From: Ruminococcus sp.
Lineage (GTDB): Bacteria; Bacillota; Clostridia; Oscillospirales; Ruminococcaceae
Assembly: GCA_021199375.1 (NCBI GenBank)
Contig: JAJQIB010000024.1
Location: 5,654-69,653, forward strand
Direction: 5' to 3'
DNA: 64,000 nucleotides
The position numbers and the translations under genes were made by a program. Positions 7,162-33,764 of this stretch are shown piece after piece. The notes below the pieces were generated by a model, which was given only the letters and a program-made list of their open reading frames with translations, did no database searches and was not told the origin of the DNA. Numbering within the stretch: position 1 is the first letter of the stretch; each line of letters starts with the position of its first letter.

Positions 7162-7515
7162 ATGAAAAGCACAGGATTAATAAGACAGATAGACCCACTT
7201 GGAAGAGTTGTACTTCCGACTGCATGGAGAAGAGCTTTAGGATATGAACCGGGGATGTACGTTGAGCTTTTTGCACAGGGTGAGGACATCATAATCAAAA
7301 AACGTAGAGATGCTTGCTTCTTTTGTAATTCGGAGGAAGACGTGCAGATGGTGCTTGGTAAACCAATATGCGGTGAGTGTTTAAACCAAATCAGAAATCA
7401 AAAAGAGAGCAGCAAAGATGAAATGATAGATAAGCTGGGAATCACTCAAACTAAAGATGAATTGAATGAAGAACCGGACGAGGTTATTGTATACTCTGAG
7501 GAGGATCTGAAATGA
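7162..7515 (+). CDS. AbrB/SpoVT-like transcriptional regulator
   Basis: MKSTGLIRQIDPLGRVVLPTAWRRALGYEPGMYVELFAQGEDIIIKKR. Confidence 0.85.
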   Translation: MKSTGLIRQIDPLGRVVLPTAWRRALGYEPGMYVELFAQGEDIIIKKRRDACFFCNSEEDVQMVLGKPICGECLNQIRNQKESSKDEMIDKLGITQTKDELNEEPDEVIVYSEEDLK

Positions 7516-9779
7516 AGCAAAACAAAATGCGCGAGGAAATGGCTGCTGAGTTTGTAAGCTGTCTGAAAGAGAACAAAATACCTTGGCAATGTGAATGGAA
7601 TGTAATAAAAAACATCAACGGGGTTACTAAATCCGAATACAAGGGAATTAATATGATTTGGCTTAACTATGCTGCTGAAAAAAATGGCTGGAAAGATCCT
7701 CGATGGGTTACTTTTAATCAGGCAAGGGAAAAGGGCTGGTCTGTGAAAAAAGGCTCACGTGGAACACATATTGAATTTTGGAGCGTATACGACATTGAGC
7801 AAAAGAAAACCATTTCGTTTAATGACAGAGACAAGATATTAAAAAACAATCCTAACGTACCTAAAGAACGCTTTAGTCTAATTTCTCGAAATTACACAGT
7901 CTTTAACGGAGATCAGATTGATGGTATTCCTCCGCTCGAAAGCCTTGAGAATTTTAAGCTGAAATCGAGTGATTTTATTTCTTTGAGAGATAATCTTTTG
8001 AAAAATATGAAGGTCGGCTTTTCTGAAGGCGGAAACGAGTCTTTTTACACGCCAAATCTTGATTCAATACAAATGCCTAAAATTGAAAGCTTTAAGGATG
8101 AATACGGCTACATAGCGACATTCCTTCATGAAGCAGGACACGCAACCGGACATCCTACCCGATTGAATCGTGATTTAAGCGGAACGTTTGGCAGCGAAAG
8201 CTATGCTAAGGAGGAACTAAGAGCAGAAATTTCATCAGCCTTTACAGCCGCTCAAACAGGTATAGCCCCGGCAAATCTTGACAATCATAAAGCCTACATA
8301 CAAAGCTGGGCAGATGTTATTGAAAACGATCCAAACGAGCTTTTCAGAGCAATTAAGGATGCTGAAAAAATATCGGATTATCTTCTTGAAAAGGGCGAAT
8401 TTGAAGCTCTGAAAAAGGAGCTTGCAGAAAATATTCAAGAGGCTGACACGAATGTTGCGGGTTTGCATAATTTGGAAAACAGCGAAAGCTATAAAGCCAC
8501 AATAACCGTAAGTGAAGACGAGCTGTTAAAGATAGCAAGCAAGATTGAGCAGAACAAGAAAGAGGAGAAGGCTTTTAAAGAGCAGCTTCACCGATTGATT
8601 GAGGGCGACAAAAAGCTTGCAAGTAGACCGTTGATAATTGGACAAACACCTAATTCCCTTGTGATATGCGGAGCTGATGAAAGCTACGATTTACAAATTC
8701 TCAAAAGTGTTGTAGACAAAGCTTTAAGACCAGAAATAAGAGATGAAAATGGGAAACTCATAGGAAAAACAGGTCACGGTTTGACAGAGAAACAGCTTAT
8801 AAATGCAATTGAAAATATAAAAAATCCCGTAATGATTTTACGGGGTTCTAAGGATGATTCACTTGTAGCTGTGACAGAAATTAAGGACAACAATAACAGA
8901 TATGTTTTTGTTACTATAGACTTAAACAAAAAAACTAGATATGGGGAAGTGAACAATATAACTTCGTCATATGGAAGAAATGATATAGGAGCATATTTTG
9001 AAAGAGAATTTTCTAAAGGTAATTTGTTGTCTGTAAATATAGAAAAAGCCGACAAAGTGCTTCATGCCATAGGGAAATGGTATCCCGAGGGGAACACACT
9101 TATCAGCTTCGATAATAGTATAGCATATTCCACAGCAAATGTCAAGGGTTTTTTGCAAAAAAATTTTCAGAAAAGCAAAAAATTAAAAGGTGACATGAAA
9201 ATACCTTCTCAGAATCAAGTAAAATCAATGACAGCAGACGATAAGCTATTTGATGAAATCATGTCAAAATATGATGCTTACTATTCGTTTTTTGTTGAGC
9301 ATAAAGATTTCGAGTCATCAAAAAGCTATCACGATGCACAGGACGCTTGCAGTGCTTTTATTAAAGACAGAGAGCTTTCTGATTCAATTATGAAAAAATA
9401 TTTTGAGCGTACCGGAGATTTTCTATCATCTGACAGAGAATATGCATCCTTTGCATTTGCACTAGCTGATGCTGGCGTGATCGATAATTTTAGCAATTTT
9501 AGCATTTCTTCTAGCACTCCTTCCGTGGCTTTGCCTGAATTTCACAAAAATGAATCAGGCTATTATCAAGCTAAGGCTGTATATAACGGCAAGAGTGAAT
9601 GGAAAAATGTTCTTAATGACAAAGACAAATGGTATGTCAGACTTGATGACGGTAAAAGGTATTTTTTTAATGAAAGACAAGCGGAAAAGTTTAAGGAGTT
9701 TTCTATTAGCTCCTTAAAAAAAGAATCTAAAGCAAAGGCAGTGGCTGTTCCAGTTGTGGGTAAAAAGCTGAAAATATGA
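7512..9779 (+). CDS. Large polyvalent protein: ArdC-like N-domain, zincin metallopeptidase (HEAGH), MuF-C-like region
   Basis: MREEMAAEFVSCLKENKIPWQCEWN; FLHEAGHATGHPTRLNR; TGHGLTEKQLINAIENIKNPVMILRGSKDDSLVAV. Confidence 0.75.
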   Translation: MKQNKMREEMAAEFVSCLKENKIPWQCEWNVIKNINGVTKSEYKGINMIWLNYAAEKNGWKDPRWVTFNQAREKGWSVKKGSRGTHIEFWSVYDIEQKKTISFNDRDKILKNNPNVPKERFSLISRNYTVFNGDQIDGIPPLESLENFKLKSSDFISLRDNLLKNMKVGFSEGGNESFYTPNLDSIQMPKIESFKDEYGYIATFLHEAGHATGHPTRLNRDLSGTFGSESYAKEELRAEISSAFTAAQTGIAPANLDNHKAYIQSWADVIENDPNELFRAIKDAEKISDYLLEKGEFEALKKELAENIQEADTNVAGLHNLENSESYKATITVSEDELLKIASKIEQNKKEEKAFKEQLHRLIEGDKKLASRPLIIGQTPNSLVICGADESYDLQILKSVVDKALRPEIRDENGKLIGKTGHGLTEKQLINAIENIKNPVMILRGSKDDSLVAVTEIKDNNNRYVFVTIDLNKKTRYGEVNNITSSYGRNDIGAYFEREFSKGNLLSVNIEKADKVLHAIGKWYPEGNTLISFDNSIAYSTANVKGFLQKNFQKSKKLKGDMKIPSQNQVKSMTADDKLFDEIMSKYDAYYSFFVEHKDFESSKSYHDAQDACSAFIKDRELSDSIMKKYFERTGDFLSSDREYASFAFALADAGVIDNFSNFSISSSTPSVALPEFHKNESGYYQAKAVYNGKSEWKNVLNDKDKWYVRLDDGKRYFFNERQAEKFKEFSISSLKKESKAKAVAVPVVGKKLKI

Positions 9780-9788
9780 GGAATAGTT

Positions 9789-11432
9789 ATGAGCAAATAT
9801 GTTATAGACGGTGATGAACCGCTTGATTTTGAAAGCTATGATGAAGCAATTACAAGAGCTGAGCAAACAAGTGTTGATGCTGTGAGAAAAAGCGACGACT
9901 TTGTTATGTATTCGCCTAACGATGATAAAGAGCTAATAACTTATGAAAAATATACGTACGAAGATTGGAAAACGGCTGTAAAAGGTCATCACAGTGCAAG
10001 GGACAGCCCTTCAGTGTACTTTGATATTGACGGTACTTTGGGCTATTGGTACAAGGATGGTCGGGGCTTGCCGCTTGAGGAAATACTCAATCCGAAAAAT
10101 CACTACTTTCGAGATATAGAGCCTCATCCGATGATGATTGAGCTTGCAAAAGCTTTACATAACAGTGGGACAGATGTTTGTATCATAAGTGCCGCCGACA
10201 GAGATACCTTTAGGGACAAATGGGAGTGGATAAACAAACATTTACCGTTTATTCCAAAGGAAAACATATGCTTTGCTCCGCTCGGTGTAGATAAATCAAA
10301 ATTTGTCAAAGGTAATGCCGCACATTCAATTTTGATTGACGATTACAACGTAAATCTTGATAAGTGGTGCGGCAAAGCAATCAAGGCTATTAATTTTGTC
10401 AATTCTCATCAGCTTAAATACCAAGAAATTGACTTTACAAAATCCGAACAGCTGCTTAGAGATAATCCGACATGGACTACAAAGGATTTTAAAAAAGAAA
10501 TCATAGCTGCAAGGGATTTTGTGCTTGAAGAGATTAAGGTGCAGCAAAATGCTATTAGGTTTGCTAAAGAGGTTGATGATGCTTTAGCAGGAAAAATGAA
10601 TCAATTTAATAATTTGAAAGTTTGTGAAACACCGCAAATCTTATTGAACGTAGGGTGTAGACAATTGCCGATGCTTTACACTCAACATCACTTAAAAGAT
10701 GCTTTGCATATGAAATCTGCATCAAATTCTCATTGGCACGGATTGACAACTGAACAGATGAAAAAGATACCTGAATTGTTGCAAGATCCCACCATGATTT
10801 TTGATACCTTATCAACCAAAAACTCAAATAGCATTGGAATAATATTGAATGCTATGGACAACGACAATGCACCTTTGTTGGTGTCAATTATGCCTAATGG
10901 TAATGGAATATACGAATTAGAAGCAGTTGAAAGTAATTTTATTACCAGCATATATGGGAAAGATAGTTCTTTTAGTCGCTTCGTTGAAAGAATTATTGAA
11001 AGTGACAAAATGCTTTTTTTTAATAAAGAAAAAAGCCAAGAATTATTTTCGTCTCTGCAGCTCCAATTGCCGCAGGCGTTAAACAATCTTGACTCTAATA
11101 TTATTATACACCAAAGTCGCAATATTGTCAAGGGTTTTCCACAAAAAATTTCAGAAATTTCAGTAGGCTTACCCGAATTTCGCAAGGAGAACGGCAAGTG
11201 GCAAGCTAAGGCTGTGTATAACGGCAAAAAGGAATGGACAAGCATTATAAATAGTGATGATAAGCTGTGTATCAGACTTGATGACGGCAAAAGGTATTTT
11301 TTTAATGAAAAACAAGCTAAAAAGTTTAAGGAGTTTTTTCTTTCTGAAAGCAAGAAAGCTAATAAGGACGTGGACGCTCAAAGGCTTTTAGGAGAAAGCT
11401 TTAGCTTTTTTAAAGGGCTTGGAAAAAAGTAA
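9789..11432 (+). CDS. Polyvalent-type protein: HAD-fold (5'-nucleotidase/NT5C-like) domain plus MuF-C-like region and shared C-terminal module
   Basis: SVYFDIDGTLGYWYKDG...CIISAADRDTF...HSILIDDYNVNLDKW; HGLTTEQMKKIPELLQDPTMIFDTLSTKNSNSIGIILN. Confidence 0.65.
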   Translation: MSKYVIDGDEPLDFESYDEAITRAEQTSVDAVRKSDDFVMYSPNDDKELITYEKYTYEDWKTAVKGHHSARDSPSVYFDIDGTLGYWYKDGRGLPLEEILNPKNHYFRDIEPHPMMIELAKALHNSGTDVCIISAADRDTFRDKWEWINKHLPFIPKENICFAPLGVDKSKFVKGNAAHSILIDDYNVNLDKWCGKAIKAINFVNSHQLKYQEIDFTKSEQLLRDNPTWTTKDFKKEIIAARDFVLEEIKVQQNAIRFAKEVDDALAGKMNQFNNLKVCETPQILLNVGCRQLPMLYTQHHLKDALHMKSASNSHWHGLTTEQMKKIPELLQDPTMIFDTLSTKNSNSIGIILNAMDNDNAPLLVSIMPNGNGIYELEAVESNFITSIYGKDSSFSRFVERIIESDKMLFFNKEKSQELFSSLQLQLPQALNNLDSNIIIHQSRNIVKGFPQKISEISVGLPEFRKENGKWQAKAVYNGKKEWTSIINSDDKLCIRLDDGKRYFFNEKQAKKFKEFFLSESKKANKDVDAQRLLGESFSFFKGLGKK

Positions 11433-20638: not shown

Positions 20639-20741
20639 TAAAAAAATCGACTGACGATGACGATTTTTGAGTGTCATTTACAAAAAGTATTTATTTCAAA
20701 TACAAAAATAACATCACAGGTTCATAAAGCCGAAACACCTA

Positions 20742-20884
20742 TATTTACGACATAAATAAGCTTACAGATTTTAGGAAAAAGTTTATTTACGGCATAAATA
20801 AGAATCCATAATTTAGGAGAAAATATATTTACGACATAAATATGTTTACATATTTTAGGAGATTTCATATTTACCACATAAATA
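20742..20884. repeat. Four quasi-palindromic 17-nt sites TATTTAC[GC][AG]CATAAATA-like on an exact 42-bp period
   Basis: Sites at 20742-20758, 20784-20800, 20826-20842, 20868-20884; spacers share TTTAGGA. Confidence 0.95.
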
Positions 20885-20888
20885 TGAA

Positions 20889-20964
20889 AAAGTGGGATGA
20901 CCCCACTTTGTGGGTTAAAAAAACACGGTTCTACCGTGTTTTCCGAGCGGCGTGACCCCACGCC
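20889..20964. promoter_or_regulatory. Three consecutive hairpins; candidate oriT/terminator region
   Basis: AAAGTGGG/CCCACTTT, AAAACACGGT/ACCGTGTTTT, GGCGTG/CACGCC. Confidence 0.55.
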
Positions 20965-29562: not shown

Positions 29563-29828
29563 ATTTTTTCAAAAGGGGTAGTGTTCAATTTGTCACCTCT
29601 ATTTGTAACCCACTCTTAGTATTATCTTTCTGAAAAAGAAATATATATCTTGCTATTATATATTAGATTAGATATTATTAGTTAGTTAGACTTTTTGTTC
29701 TCACAAAACGAAATCGCCTTTTTCTTTCAGACAGCTATTCATTGTTGAAAAATGTTATGATTTGAAATATAATGTTTTATTGAGCATTGCTTGACATTGT
29801 TCAAAATAATATTTTGGAGTGTGAAAAA

Positions 29829-30995
29829 ATGTATTTTCAACAAAACATTACTCTCAAATCTTACATTGAAGACGTATGGCTGCCGAGAAAGAAAAATGAA
29901 GTCAAAATATCTACATATGCAAGATACGAGGGCTTGACAAGGCGCATAATAGAATACCTTGGCAATGAAGAAATCGCAAAAATGAAACCAGCAGACATCT
30001 ATTACTTCTATGATGAACTGCGAGAATGTTGCTCAGAACACTGTGTTTATATTCCTACAGAGCTATGTGTGAATCTGTTGAAGAAAAACTACACCAGACC
30101 ACAAACAGTTAAACTCGCCAACATTGGTTTAGGAACAGTTGATGCCTTACGTGCGGGTAAAGCAGTAAAGATAACGACTGCTGAAAGAATTTCTAAATTG
30201 CTTAAATTGCCGAAAAACGAGCTATTTACGATGAGGTCGTCTCCCCTTTCAACTCGAACCATTCATCATTATCACGCTTTGCTCTTTCAAATATGCAAAG
30301 AAGCATCTTATGATGAGGTGATTGCAAACAATTTTATGAATCGTGTCAGACCGCCTAAAGTGGTTCAGTCACAAGCTGATTATCTCGATGTAGATCAGAC
30401 AAAGCAATTGTTCAAAGCACTCGAAGAACATGGCGAATACCCATACGTGACCCTCTTGAAATTAATAACATTTACAGGTATGCGGCGTGGAGAAGCTTGC
30501 GGATTGGAATGGCAAGATATTGACTTTACAGAAAAGACGTTATCAATTAGTCGCACCTGTAACTATGTGCCATCTGTAGGCATTTACACCGATACGCCTA
30601 AAACTCCTCAAAGTAAGCGTTCAATCGCCTTTGACGAAACGGTAAAACAACTTTTGATGAAGCATTATAATCGACAATTAGAGCAAAAAAAGCGTTTTGA
30701 TTGGCACGAAACTGACAGACTGTTCACAAAGCCTAATGGTGATGATATAAATCCATCGTCGGTCACAAAATATTTTCACAAGTTTGTAGAAAAATATAAT
30801 TTGCCCGAATGTCACGTCCACTCGTTAAGACACACAAATGCTTCGCTGCTAATTGCCGCCAATACTCCAATAACCACGGTAGCAGGAAGACTTGGACATT
30901 CCGATCCATCGACGACGCTGCGGATTTATTCGCATCAATTAAGTGCAGAAAACAAAAAGGCTGGAAATGCAATTGAACAACTTCTCTGCGTTTAA
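29829..30995 (+). CDS. int: Tyrosine recombinase/integrase with internal HTH-like insertion
   Basis: FTGMRRGEACGLEWQDI...HSLRHTNASLLIAANTPITTVAGRLGHSDPSTTLRIYSH. Confidence 0.93.
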   Translation: MYFQQNITLKSYIEDVWLPRKKNEVKISTYARYEGLTRRIIEYLGNEEIAKMKPADIYYFYDELRECCSEHCVYIPTELCVNLLKKNYTRPQTVKLANIGLGTVDALRAGKAVKITTAERISKLLKLPKNELFTMRSSPLSTRTIHHYHALLFQICKEASYDEVIANNFMNRVRPPKVVQSQADYLDVDQTKQLFKALEEHGEYPYVTLLKLITFTGMRRGEACGLEWQDIDFTEKTLSISRTCNYVPSVGIYTDTPKTPQSKRSIAFDETVKQLLMKHYNRQLEQKKRFDWHETDRLFTKPNGDDINPSSVTKYFHKFVEKYNLPECHVHSLRHTNASLLIAANTPITTVAGRLGHSDPSTTLRIYSHQLSAENKKAGNAIEQLLCV

Positions 30996-31066: not shown

Positions 31067-31095
31067 TTGACAAGTAGGACAAAATGTGATATAAT
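31067..31095 (+). promoter_or_regulatory. Promoter of type I toxin-like mRNA, module A
   Basis: TTGACA-17 bp-TATAAT. Confidence 0.85.
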
Positions 31096-31164
31096 AAGAT
31101 ATAAGGGTTCTGTGCAAACAGCGGACGAGCGGTTCAATCTTTCCCTCGCAAGGGGGTGAGCTGT

Positions 31165-31242
31165 ATGACGATAATCGAAATACTTACGCTACTTCTGGTA
31201 GTGATTGAGATAATCAAACTCAGCAACAACAGAAAAAAGTAA
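31165..31242 (+). CDS. 25-aa hydrophobic holin-like/type I toxin-like peptide, module A
   Basis: AAGGGGGTG RBS; MTIIEILTLLLVVIEIIKLSNNRKK. Confidence 0.65.
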   Translation: MTIIEILTLLLVVIEIIKLSNNRKK

Positions 31243-31272
31243 CCGCCCTACCCCAAATAGGACGGTTGTTTT
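31241..31272. terminator. Terminator hairpin of module A
   Basis: AACCGCCCTA-CCCCAAA-TAGGACGGTT-GTTTT. Confidence 0.7.
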
Positions 31273-31340
31273 GAATAAAATACCGTTTTGAGGGAGAACC
31301 GCTTAGCCGTAAGGCTGTGCAGTACCCTTTTTCTATTTAT

Positions 31341-31369
31341 ATTATACCATGTGACATTCGTTTTGTCAA
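31341..31369 (-). promoter_or_regulatory. Convergent antisense promoter, module A (antitoxin RNA candidate)
   Basis: Minus strand TTGACA-17 bp-TATAAT. Confidence 0.85.
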
Positions 31370-31664: not shown

Positions 31665-31883
31665 TCAAGTCCATGAGATGTTCAAGTGCTTTTGATTATT
31701 TGTGCAATCAAGTAAATAGAGATTTATAAGTGTCTGATAAGGAATACCATTTTCTACTGATAACTGCTTGAAATAATCGACAACAGCGGTGTCAAGATTT
31801 ATTGTAATTTGCTTTTTCTTTAGTTTTTCAGCATATGGGTTTCTTCTTGGGTTCAGATTTTCGATGTCATATTCTTCTCTCAT
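31665..31883 (-). CDS. BrnA-like antitoxin
   Basis: NPYAEKLKKKQITINLDTAVVDYFKQLSVENGIPYQTLINLYL; directly downstream of BrnT. Confidence 0.75.
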   Translation of the reverse strand: MREEYDIENLNPRRNPYAEKLKKKQITINLDTAVVDYFKQLSVENGIPYQTLINLYLLDCTNNQKHLNISWT

Positions 31884-31887
31884 AATT

Positions 31888-32175
31888 TCACCTCCATTCT
31901 TGATATTCTTTGGTTTCATTTTTGGTAGCTTTTCGTGCAGATATAAGTCGAATAACCTCATCTGATTGACGATAACAATGACACACTACGAGCAAATTTG
32001 CTTTATTACTAAAACCTATCAATATAAACCTATCCTCACTTTCTGAATGCTCTGGGTCATCAAATAAAATTGCGTTATCATCATAGAATGCAGTCTTGGC
32101 TTCTTCAAACGATACTTTGTGTTTTCGTTTATTTATATCGTTCTTGTTTTCATCCCATTCAAATATTATTTCCAT
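31888..32175 (-). CDS. brnT: BrnT family toxin
   Basis: MEIIFEWDENKNDINKRKHKVSFEEAKTAFYDDNAILFDDPEHSESEDRFILIGFS. Confidence 0.92.
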   Translation of the reverse strand: MEIIFEWDENKNDINKRKHKVSFEEAKTAFYDDNAILFDDPEHSESEDRFILIGFSNKANLLVVCHCYRQSDEVIRLISARKATKNETKEYQEWR

Positions 32176-32337: not shown

Positions 32338-32366
32338 TTGACAAGTAGGACAAATTGTGATATAAT
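32338..32366 (+). promoter_or_regulatory. Promoter of type I toxin-like mRNA, module B
   Basis: TTGACA-17 bp-TATAAT. Confidence 0.85.
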
Positions 32367-32437
32367 AAAATATAAGGGTACTGTGCAAACAGCGGCATCG
32401 GCGGTTCAATCTTTCCCTCGCAAGGGGGGTGAGCTGT

Positions 32438-32530
32438 ATGAGCGTGATAGAAGTAATAGCATTACTAAACTTAATCGCAAACATAGTCGGTTTAATTATC
32501 GGCAACAGCAATAATAATAAAAAGAAATAA
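32438..32530 (+). CDS. 30-aa hydrophobic holin-like/type I toxin-like peptide, module B
   Basis: CAAGGGGGGTGAG RBS; MSVIEVIALLNLIANIVGLIIGNSNNNKKK. Confidence 0.65.
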   Translation: MSVIEVIALLNLIANIVGLIIGNSNNNKKK

Positions 32531-32558
32531 CCGCCCTGCTCTCCATAGGACGGTTATT
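32528..32558. terminator. Terminator hairpin of module B
   Basis: AACCGCCCTGCTCTCCATAGGACGGTT. Confidence 0.65.
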
Positions 32559-32624
32559 CAAAAACCACAAATATGAGGGAGAACCGCTTAGCCGTAAGGC
32601 TGTGCAGTACCCTTTTCTATTTAT

Positions 32625-32653
32625 ATTATACCACGTGATATTCGTTTTGTCAA
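32625..32653 (-). promoter_or_regulatory. Convergent antisense promoter, module B
   Basis: Minus strand TTGACA-17 bp-TATAAT. Confidence 0.85.
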
Positions 32654-32823: not shown

Positions 32824-32852
32824 TTGACAAAATGAAAATTATGTGTTATAAT
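32824..32852 (+). promoter_or_regulatory. Consensus promoter, module C
   Basis: TTGACA-17 bp-TATAAT. Confidence 0.85.
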
Positions 32853-32876
32853 ATAAGTGTAATGAAAAACAAAACA

Positions 32877-32906
32877 GGCTTGTGTGTGTGTACACACACA
32901 CAAGCC
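32877..32906 (-). terminator. Perfect 30-nt palindrome; on minus strand followed by TGTTTTGTTTTT (terminator-like)
   Basis: GGCTTGTGTGTGTGT/ACACACACACAAGCC. Confidence 0.65.
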
Positions 32907-32966
32907 CATAACCGCAAAAGATATTGACAGTATCTTTCGGACTTAGTTTTGATGTTCATCGCTACT

Positions 32967-32995
32967 ATTATAGCATGAAATAGATTCTTTGTCAA
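32967..32995 (-). promoter_or_regulatory. Convergent consensus promoter, module C
   Basis: Minus strand TTGACA-17 bp-TATAAT. Confidence 0.85.
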
Positions 32996-33136
32996 GACCC
33001 TTCGTCAAGTAAATTTTGCGGAGGGTTTTGATTTTCGTTATTGAAACTTGAACAATGTCTATAAAGACATCCTGTATTAAACGGCACATTATCAAGACCT
33101 ATTGCTTAATTCTTGACAAGTCCGTGTAATCAGCGG

Positions 33137-33670
33137 AAATGAATAAGCCTCACTAGGGACGTGAACTTGCTTAGACACGGCAAGACCCGAACGTTCCCTC
33201 CGTAATCCGAAAGTCCTTAAACCGAGAGGAGCTTCCTGTAACAAGGAGTGACAAGTACGAGGAGGATGCAAGAGTGAGAACTTACAAAGTGTAAAGTACG
33301 CCATGACCGTTTGAAAAGAGGTCAAAAAACTGAAGTTGACACCGATTAGGTGTAAATCAAATAAGATCAGTTTCCTTGACAGCTTGCCTCAGACCGAGCG
33401 TGCTATGCTGCAAAAAATCCCATCGCAATTGCGTTTGATAATAACGCAAGGGTAATAATGCAGCGAAAAGCCCAATGGCACGGACTAAACTGTAAGTACC
33501 GGACATCGCCTTTCTTAGCGAAAAAGGCACAAAAGATGATCCGTGGCGTAGAAAATTCAATTAAATTAACAATGCTCGGATGAGCTTAATTGAATATATT
33601 CAGTCGGTAGTTTGCCGACTGAAATAAGTCCACCTTTTTCTTTCTGAGAGAAAATGTAGGCTTATTTCAG
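33137..33670. ncRNA. Large structured noncoding RNA candidate, ROOL-like (orientation probably +)
   Basis: ~530 nt without credible ORF, many hairpins, long-range AATAAGCCT/AGGCTTATT pairing (33142-33150 with 33658-33666), adjacent to tRNA genes. Confidence 0.5.
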
Positions 33671-33691
33671 CTGGCAATCACCAACCGTGAG

Positions 33692-33764
33692 CAGGGGCAG
33701 AAGGGATCGAACCCTCGGCACGCGGTTTTGGAGACCGCTGCTCTACCATCTGAGCTATACCCCT
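33692..33764 (-). tRNA. tRNA-Trp (CCA)
   Basis: Cloverleaf; anticodon loop CTCCAAA; 7-bp acceptor AGGGGTA/TGCCCCT. Confidence 0.93.

Follow-up and report, generated by a model that had tools for sequence, protein, structure and literature searches.

In the plasmid antisense pairs RNAI/RNAII and CopA/CopT, a short structured antisense RNA is transcribed opposite the 5′ part of a longer one, and the hairpin tops diverge between copies. Type I toxin–antitoxin modules of the TxpA/RatA kind are built from convergent promoters and an antisense overlap. Large structured noncoding RNAs form another group, in which ROOL is marked by an octameric nanocage built from RNA only. ROOL RNA (RF03087) has a length of 500–660 nt and an elaborate fold with pseudoknots, and is found in mobile DNA, often near tRNA genes (PMC12286853, PMC5643018). 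GOLLD RNA (RF02032), of ~800 nt, is likewise found in mobile DNA near tRNA genes (PMC12286853).

The locus analysed here combines features of these systems. The favoured reading, with a probability of about 0.55 based on sequence comparison, is that it represents an undescribed family of large (~0.7–0.8 kb) structured noncoding RNAs, located at the att end of integrative elements and probably controlled by an antisense RNA. It looks like a new RNA family of mobile DNA because five more tRNA-adjacent copies exist, none of which matches a catalogued RNA family; no description of such a family was found in the open-access literature.

Location at the attachment site of an integrative element

The window, i.e., the whole stretch of 64,000 nucleotides that was analysed, is part of contig 35 of a 2.3 Mb genome. 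Its left half is an integrative conjugative element (ICE) encoding a T4SS ATPase, a coupling protein, a MobL relaxase, a tyrosine integrase and the BrnT/BrnA pair (Table 1). The RNA is flanked by the integrase/BrnTA genes on one side and by the att core within tRNA-Trp on the other. A preliminary description had already placed it beside tRNA-Trp and tRNA-Pro at the ICE–chromosome junction, and both statements hold: the 43-bp att core recurs exactly at G000:C9:17142-17184, where a ParA-type gene, read from the sequence, starts ~180 bp beyond the core at the other ICE end. On its chromosomal side, this second copy has in front of it a hairpin resembling a terminator, which would suit the displaced tRNA terminator. 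The att repeat, the ParA-type gene and the displaced-terminator-like hairpin therefore place the RNA unit inside the ICE, at its tRNA end.

The nearest relatives of the ICE integrase among 398 family genomes are only 43% identical to it and share with it, according to the alignment, an additional HTH-like segment that separates the SAM-like from the catalytic domain. Just 5′ of the MobL relaxase gene, four spaced repeats of approximately TTTACGACATAAATAA, followed by two hairpins (20740–20960), constitute a candidate oriT or iteron region. A protein with MuF_C and 5′-nucleotidase (NT5C) domains (9789–11432) is common to the window and to the RNA-carrying element of genome G011 (see below), and the neighbouring ORF (7512–9779) contains ArdC and MuF_C domains.

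Extent and anatomy of the RNA unit

A structured noncoding RNA of ~530 nt had been proposed for positions 33050–33690. Structured RNA is indeed present there, and the stems listed at the time occur in the sequence, but the unit is larger and begins near 32824, with a convergent promoter pair and a predicted antisense sRNA that had been missed. Between the two promoters lies a three-way junction with the closing pairs CAAAAC/GTTTTG, which on the − strand corresponds to the sRNA, with a hairpin and a T-rich end. The promoter previously assigned to 33102–33130 matches at only 9 of 12 positions, has its second hexamer inside a conserved stem, and is displaced by the perfect promoter upstream. Such a partial match is doubtful because perfect TTGACA-17-TATAAT promoters are numerous in the window, and in many of them TG precedes the second hexamer. 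Both promoters, a structured part of ~520–580 nt and the GAUUA hairpin are present in all six copies, and the predicted whole + transcript has a length of ~720–820 nt across the family.

The 3′ hairpins at 33601–33621 and 33619–33670 are conserved in G011, and the place of the hairpin at 33555–33595 is taken there by a hairpin of different sequence. Two exclusive folds had been suggested, an end-to-end closure by AATAAGCCT/AGGCTTATT and a local 3′ hairpin. They are isoenergetic in the window (−156.3 vs. −155.5 kcal/mol), but only the local hairpin is conserved; it is kept in G011 with an A-U to G-C change, while the end-to-end closure is lost.

Table 1. Features of the RNA unit and its surroundings (positions refer to the window).
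Feature	Position	Strand	Remarks
ICE tyrosine integrase	29787–30995	+	PF00589, 5e-27
BrnA antitoxin	31665–31961	−	PF04365/PF14384 matches for BrnT/BrnA pair; cargo between integrase and RNA
BrnT toxin	31888–32175	−	PF04365/PF14384 matches for BrnT/BrnA pair; cargo between integrase and RNA
Long-RNA promoter, TTGACA-17-TATAAT, TG before second hexamer	32824–32852	+	12/12 match; kept in 6/6 copies
Long structured RNA, ~820 nt	32859–33680	+	predicted 5′ start, from promoter; 3′ end uncertain; conserved in G011 and as a unit in six loci; full-length fold z −7.1
Predicted antisense sRNA, ~90 nt	32870–32960	−	predicted ends; terminator-like hairpin; covariation 0/500 shuffles, six members
Parts of the sRNA	closing stem 32870–32875/32946–32951; hairpins 32912–32940, 32877–32906	−	then T-rich tail
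Antisense sRNA promoter, convergent	32967–32995	−	12/12 match; TTGACA-17-TGCTATA(A/C)T in 6/6 copies
Conserved stem 33077–33084/33122–33129	33077–33129	+	holds second hexamer of the previously proposed promoter
5′ domain	33149–33278	+	five two-sided compensatory changes, window vs. G011
Parts of the 5′ domain	closing helix 33149–33154/33273–33278; stem 33157–33162/33191–33196; hairpin 33166–33170/33180–33184	+	
Pseudoknot 33280–33286 (ACTTACA)/33491–33497 (TGTAAGT)	33280–33497	+	7/7 pairs kept in G011, one T-A to C-G
Central domain, closed by TACGCCA/TGGCGTA	33297–33550	+	model R2 match 45.5 bits in G011; fold z −4.6; pair counts
Parts of the central domain	long arm 33309–33394; helix 33406–33412/33459–33465	+	
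Hairpin with GAUUA loop, core CGATTAG	33339–33353	+	CGATTAG in 6/6 members, covarying stem
3′ hairpins 33555–33595, 33601–33621, 33619–33670	33555–33677	+	end just before tRNA
tRNA-Trp (cca)	33691–33764	−	3′ 43 bp (33691–33733) = att core

Homologous copies next to tRNA genes

Besides the copy in the window, searches with covariance models retrieved five others in four genomes of the same genus. A model of 33297–33552 (R2), used with lax filters, gave a full-length match in G011 (E 3e-10). This copy adjoins tRNA-Pro(cgg) and, like that of the window, is convergent with the tRNA gene; it is preceded by an integrase, a HepT/MNT pair and a MuF_C/NT5C gene, and resembles the window even better upstream of the interval first proposed. 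A model of this conserved upstream part (R3) retrieved four further copies, next to tRNA-Pro(ggg) in G007, tRNA-Ala(cgc) and tRNA-Pro(cgg) in G001, and tRNA-Pro(ggg) in G012. All six copies end against the 3′ end of a tRNA and are convergent with the tRNA gene (five tRNA loci besides the window's own), with a promoter-to-tRNA distance of 760–868 nt, and an integrase is located upstream in the three copies where the flank was read (window, G011 and G001a). The sample covers one genus and about four independent lineages; the long RNAs of the G001 and G012 copies share 84–96% identity. In G001, the integrase that neighbours the tRNA-Ala copy (L087:8821-9786) reads as two pieces, so this element may be decaying, while its RNA stays close to the other copies.

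BLAST of the RNA against 100 relatives and 392 class genomes returned only chance matches of 20–35 nt, and the phages and plasmids searched contained no homolog. The single-sequence models R1 and R2 with strict filters gave nothing over 249, 347 and 392 genomes, which is not evidence of absence, because R1 missed the G011 copy that R2 detected with lax filters. R1 also had no match at the loci of ICE integrase relatives (34–43% identity). A 17-mer scan of 85,462 genomes produced three chance matches, with a 17-mer that turned out to be unconserved in the family.

Folding, covariation and strand

The evidence for a structured RNA from single-sequence folding is moderate. All 200 dinucleotide shuffles fold less well than the + strand of 33137–33672 (z −5.25), and the same holds for the − strand, which is nearly equal to it in energy (z −4.75). 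The full transcripts reach z −5.1 to −7.3 in five members. The core (33141–33552) alone has a z of −3.2, a value undercut by 9 of 92 control windows; the loop adenine content was not above that of shuffles and was dropped as evidence. As the core is unremarkable by single-sequence energy, the case rests on the homologs and on covariation.

Covariation among the tRNA-adjacent loci is significant. When the 5′ hairpins of the six members are aligned by sequence only, 86.8% of the cells are paired and 12 pairs show two-sided changes; the covariation score of 0.366 (0.150 in shuffles) is reached by none of 500 shuffles, and only 27–39% of the cells are paired when the alignment is slid. A hand alignment of the window with its nearest homolog, G011, is favourable because it was guided by structure; its 101 pairs comprise 69 without change, 19 with changes on both sides, 7 with a change on one side and 6 that are broken. 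An unguided MAFFT alignment of the same two sequences gives 7 two-sided pairs and 88.4% paired cells (0/500 shuffles; 30–37% when slid). These compensatory changes indicate selection on RNA folding and, together with the six tRNA-adjacent copies, support the claim of a large structured noncoding RNA at the ICE–tRNA junction.

The pair list of the hand alignment contains eight G-T cells and one A-C cell for the G011 long RNA, which favours an RNA on the + strand. In the sRNA hairpins, A-C on the + strand (G-U on the − strand) exceeds G-T by 11 to 4, the pattern expected if the − strand is under selection there.

A putative antisense-controlled RNA and its alternatives

In the proposed mechanism, the strong + promoter would start the long RNA and the convergent promoter would start an sRNA of ~90 nt, fully complementary to the 5′ region of the long RNA. 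Plasmid and type I systems under antisense control serve as the analogy: the sRNA may pair with the long RNA during its synthesis and keep its level low, such that the long RNA would rise only when the balance shifts, e.g., upon excision, copy-number rise or transfer. As it encodes nothing, the released long RNA would act as a folded RNA, possibly in maintenance or regulation of the element. In all six copies, convergent promoters occur together with an sRNA sequence that is complementary to the long RNA at its 5′ end, which at the sequence level is the arrangement of an antisense pair. The likely antisense switch and the fixed position at the att site make expression and function directly testable by comparing the integrated with the excised state.

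Two different copies of the unit coexist in G001, and the sRNA hairpin tops differ, with compensating changes, among the otherwise 84–96% identical G001 and G012 copies. Such a pattern would be expected if antisense loops determine the specificity between co-resident elements. It is conceivable, at somewhat less than even odds, that the unit stands for a new class of large ornate RNAs restricted to integrative elements at tRNA att sites, in which each element has its own sRNA and the diversified tops allow co-resident elements to be regulated separately.

The main rival follows from the left end of the ICE, where no + promoter-like site was found in front of the ParA-type gene. The long RNA could be a structured, antisense-attenuated 5′ leader of the left-end operon, with ParA as its first gene, that is read across attP after excision and circularisation; in the integrated state, the transcript would run into the tRNA antisense. 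In favour of this, the promoter is directed towards the att site, the start of the ParA-type gene is close to the core at the other end, and no U-tract terminator was found on the + strand upstream of the att core. We nevertheless consider this rather unlikely, since a pseudoknotted leader of 800 nt would be unusually elaborate and the RNA of G001 is well preserved next to an integrase in two pieces.

A type I toxin–antitoxin system, with the long RNA as toxin mRNA and the antisense RNA as antitoxin, is improbable. Its strong convergent promoters and the presence of two type I-like modules next door would fit, but the structure spans the whole transcript and no short hydrophobic toxin ORF with a Shine–Dalgarno (SD) sequence was found on the sense RNA of the six members. 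SD-preceded ORFs of at least 8 codons are absent from five of the six + transcripts, the sixth contains one of 8 codons, and no member encodes a plausible peptide. The two adjoining modules (32338–32653 and 31067–31369) have SD-preceded hydrophobic peptides, MSVIEVIALLNLIANIVGLIIGNSNNNKKK at 32438, which has no Pfam match, and MTIIEILTLLLVVIEIIKLSNNRKK near 31165. Their + promoters are perfect, and convergent − promoters overlie the 3′ ends. The antisense part of these modules is found at several further sites of the genome, and G011 encodes a similar peptide upstream of the RNA.

Slightly less probable still is an element acting at the DNA level, e.g., integrase arm sites or a single-strand origin whose hairpins function as DNA. 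The location at the ICE end and the folding of both strands are compatible with it, but the 8 to 1 ratio of G-T to A-C pairs in the G011 long RNA favours a + RNA and no similarity to known plasmid origins was observed. Arm sites made of the TGAAATAAG repeats were rejected, because these repeats are absent near the other att copy.

The preliminary description had suggested the ROOL class for the RNA from its size, context and structure. Similar size, mobile DNA and tRNA adjacency speak for ROOL or GOLLD, but either identity is now very improbable. The Rfam ROOL model is silent over the region, even at E ≤ 10, and over the homologs, but detects the known ROOL of the L. salivarius plasmid pMP118 (PMC5643018), the control in the same search, at 130.4 bits. 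The GOLLD model was equally without a match, at a threshold of E ≤ 10 for the window and of E ≤ 0.5 for the homologs, with ROOL as the only positive control. Searches with other large noncoding RNA models gave no match in the window or, even at E ≤ 10, over the region, and no Rfam family other than tRNA was found at a meaningful level in the six members. Least credible is a degraded coding region or intron remnant: motifs like GACUAAA and AAGAU, reminiscent of the core of a group I intron, are lost in G011, where the candidate P7 strand is not conserved either, Rfam contains no group I or II match (none to RF00028 at E ≤ 10), and the six-frame translations match no Pfam family above the cut-off, which bears out the earlier remark that no convincing ORF is present and, with the compensatory changes, argues against a coding remnant.

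Comparison with known systems

If the RNA unit is an antisense-controlled family of integrative elements, its control region resembles plasmid antisense RNAs of the RNAI/RNAII and CopA/CopT type, in that the predicted sRNA opposes the 5′ region of the long RNA and the hairpin tops diverge. In contrast to these, no replication gene follows downstream in the integrated state, and the long RNA is large and noncoding. With TxpA/RatA-like modules, which it adjoins, the unit shares convergent promoters and antisense overlap, but no toxin peptide is encoded, the antisense overlap concerns the 5′ end, and the RNA is large and covarying.

Like ROOL, the RNA is tRNA-adjacent in mobile DNA (six of six copies at a tRNA, with an integrase upstream in three), but it matches ROOL neither in sequence nor in structure, is fixed at the tRNA attachment site of integrative elements and has a putative 5′ antisense sRNA. 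GOLLD was described from phages and prophages; the RNA of the window is without an Rfam match and has a putative antisense sRNA. Both ROOL and GOLLD occur in phages as elaborate RNAs close to tRNA genes. With a probable separate family in the corresponding position on conjugative elements, mobile DNA next to tRNA genes would seem to have recruited giant RNAs more than once.
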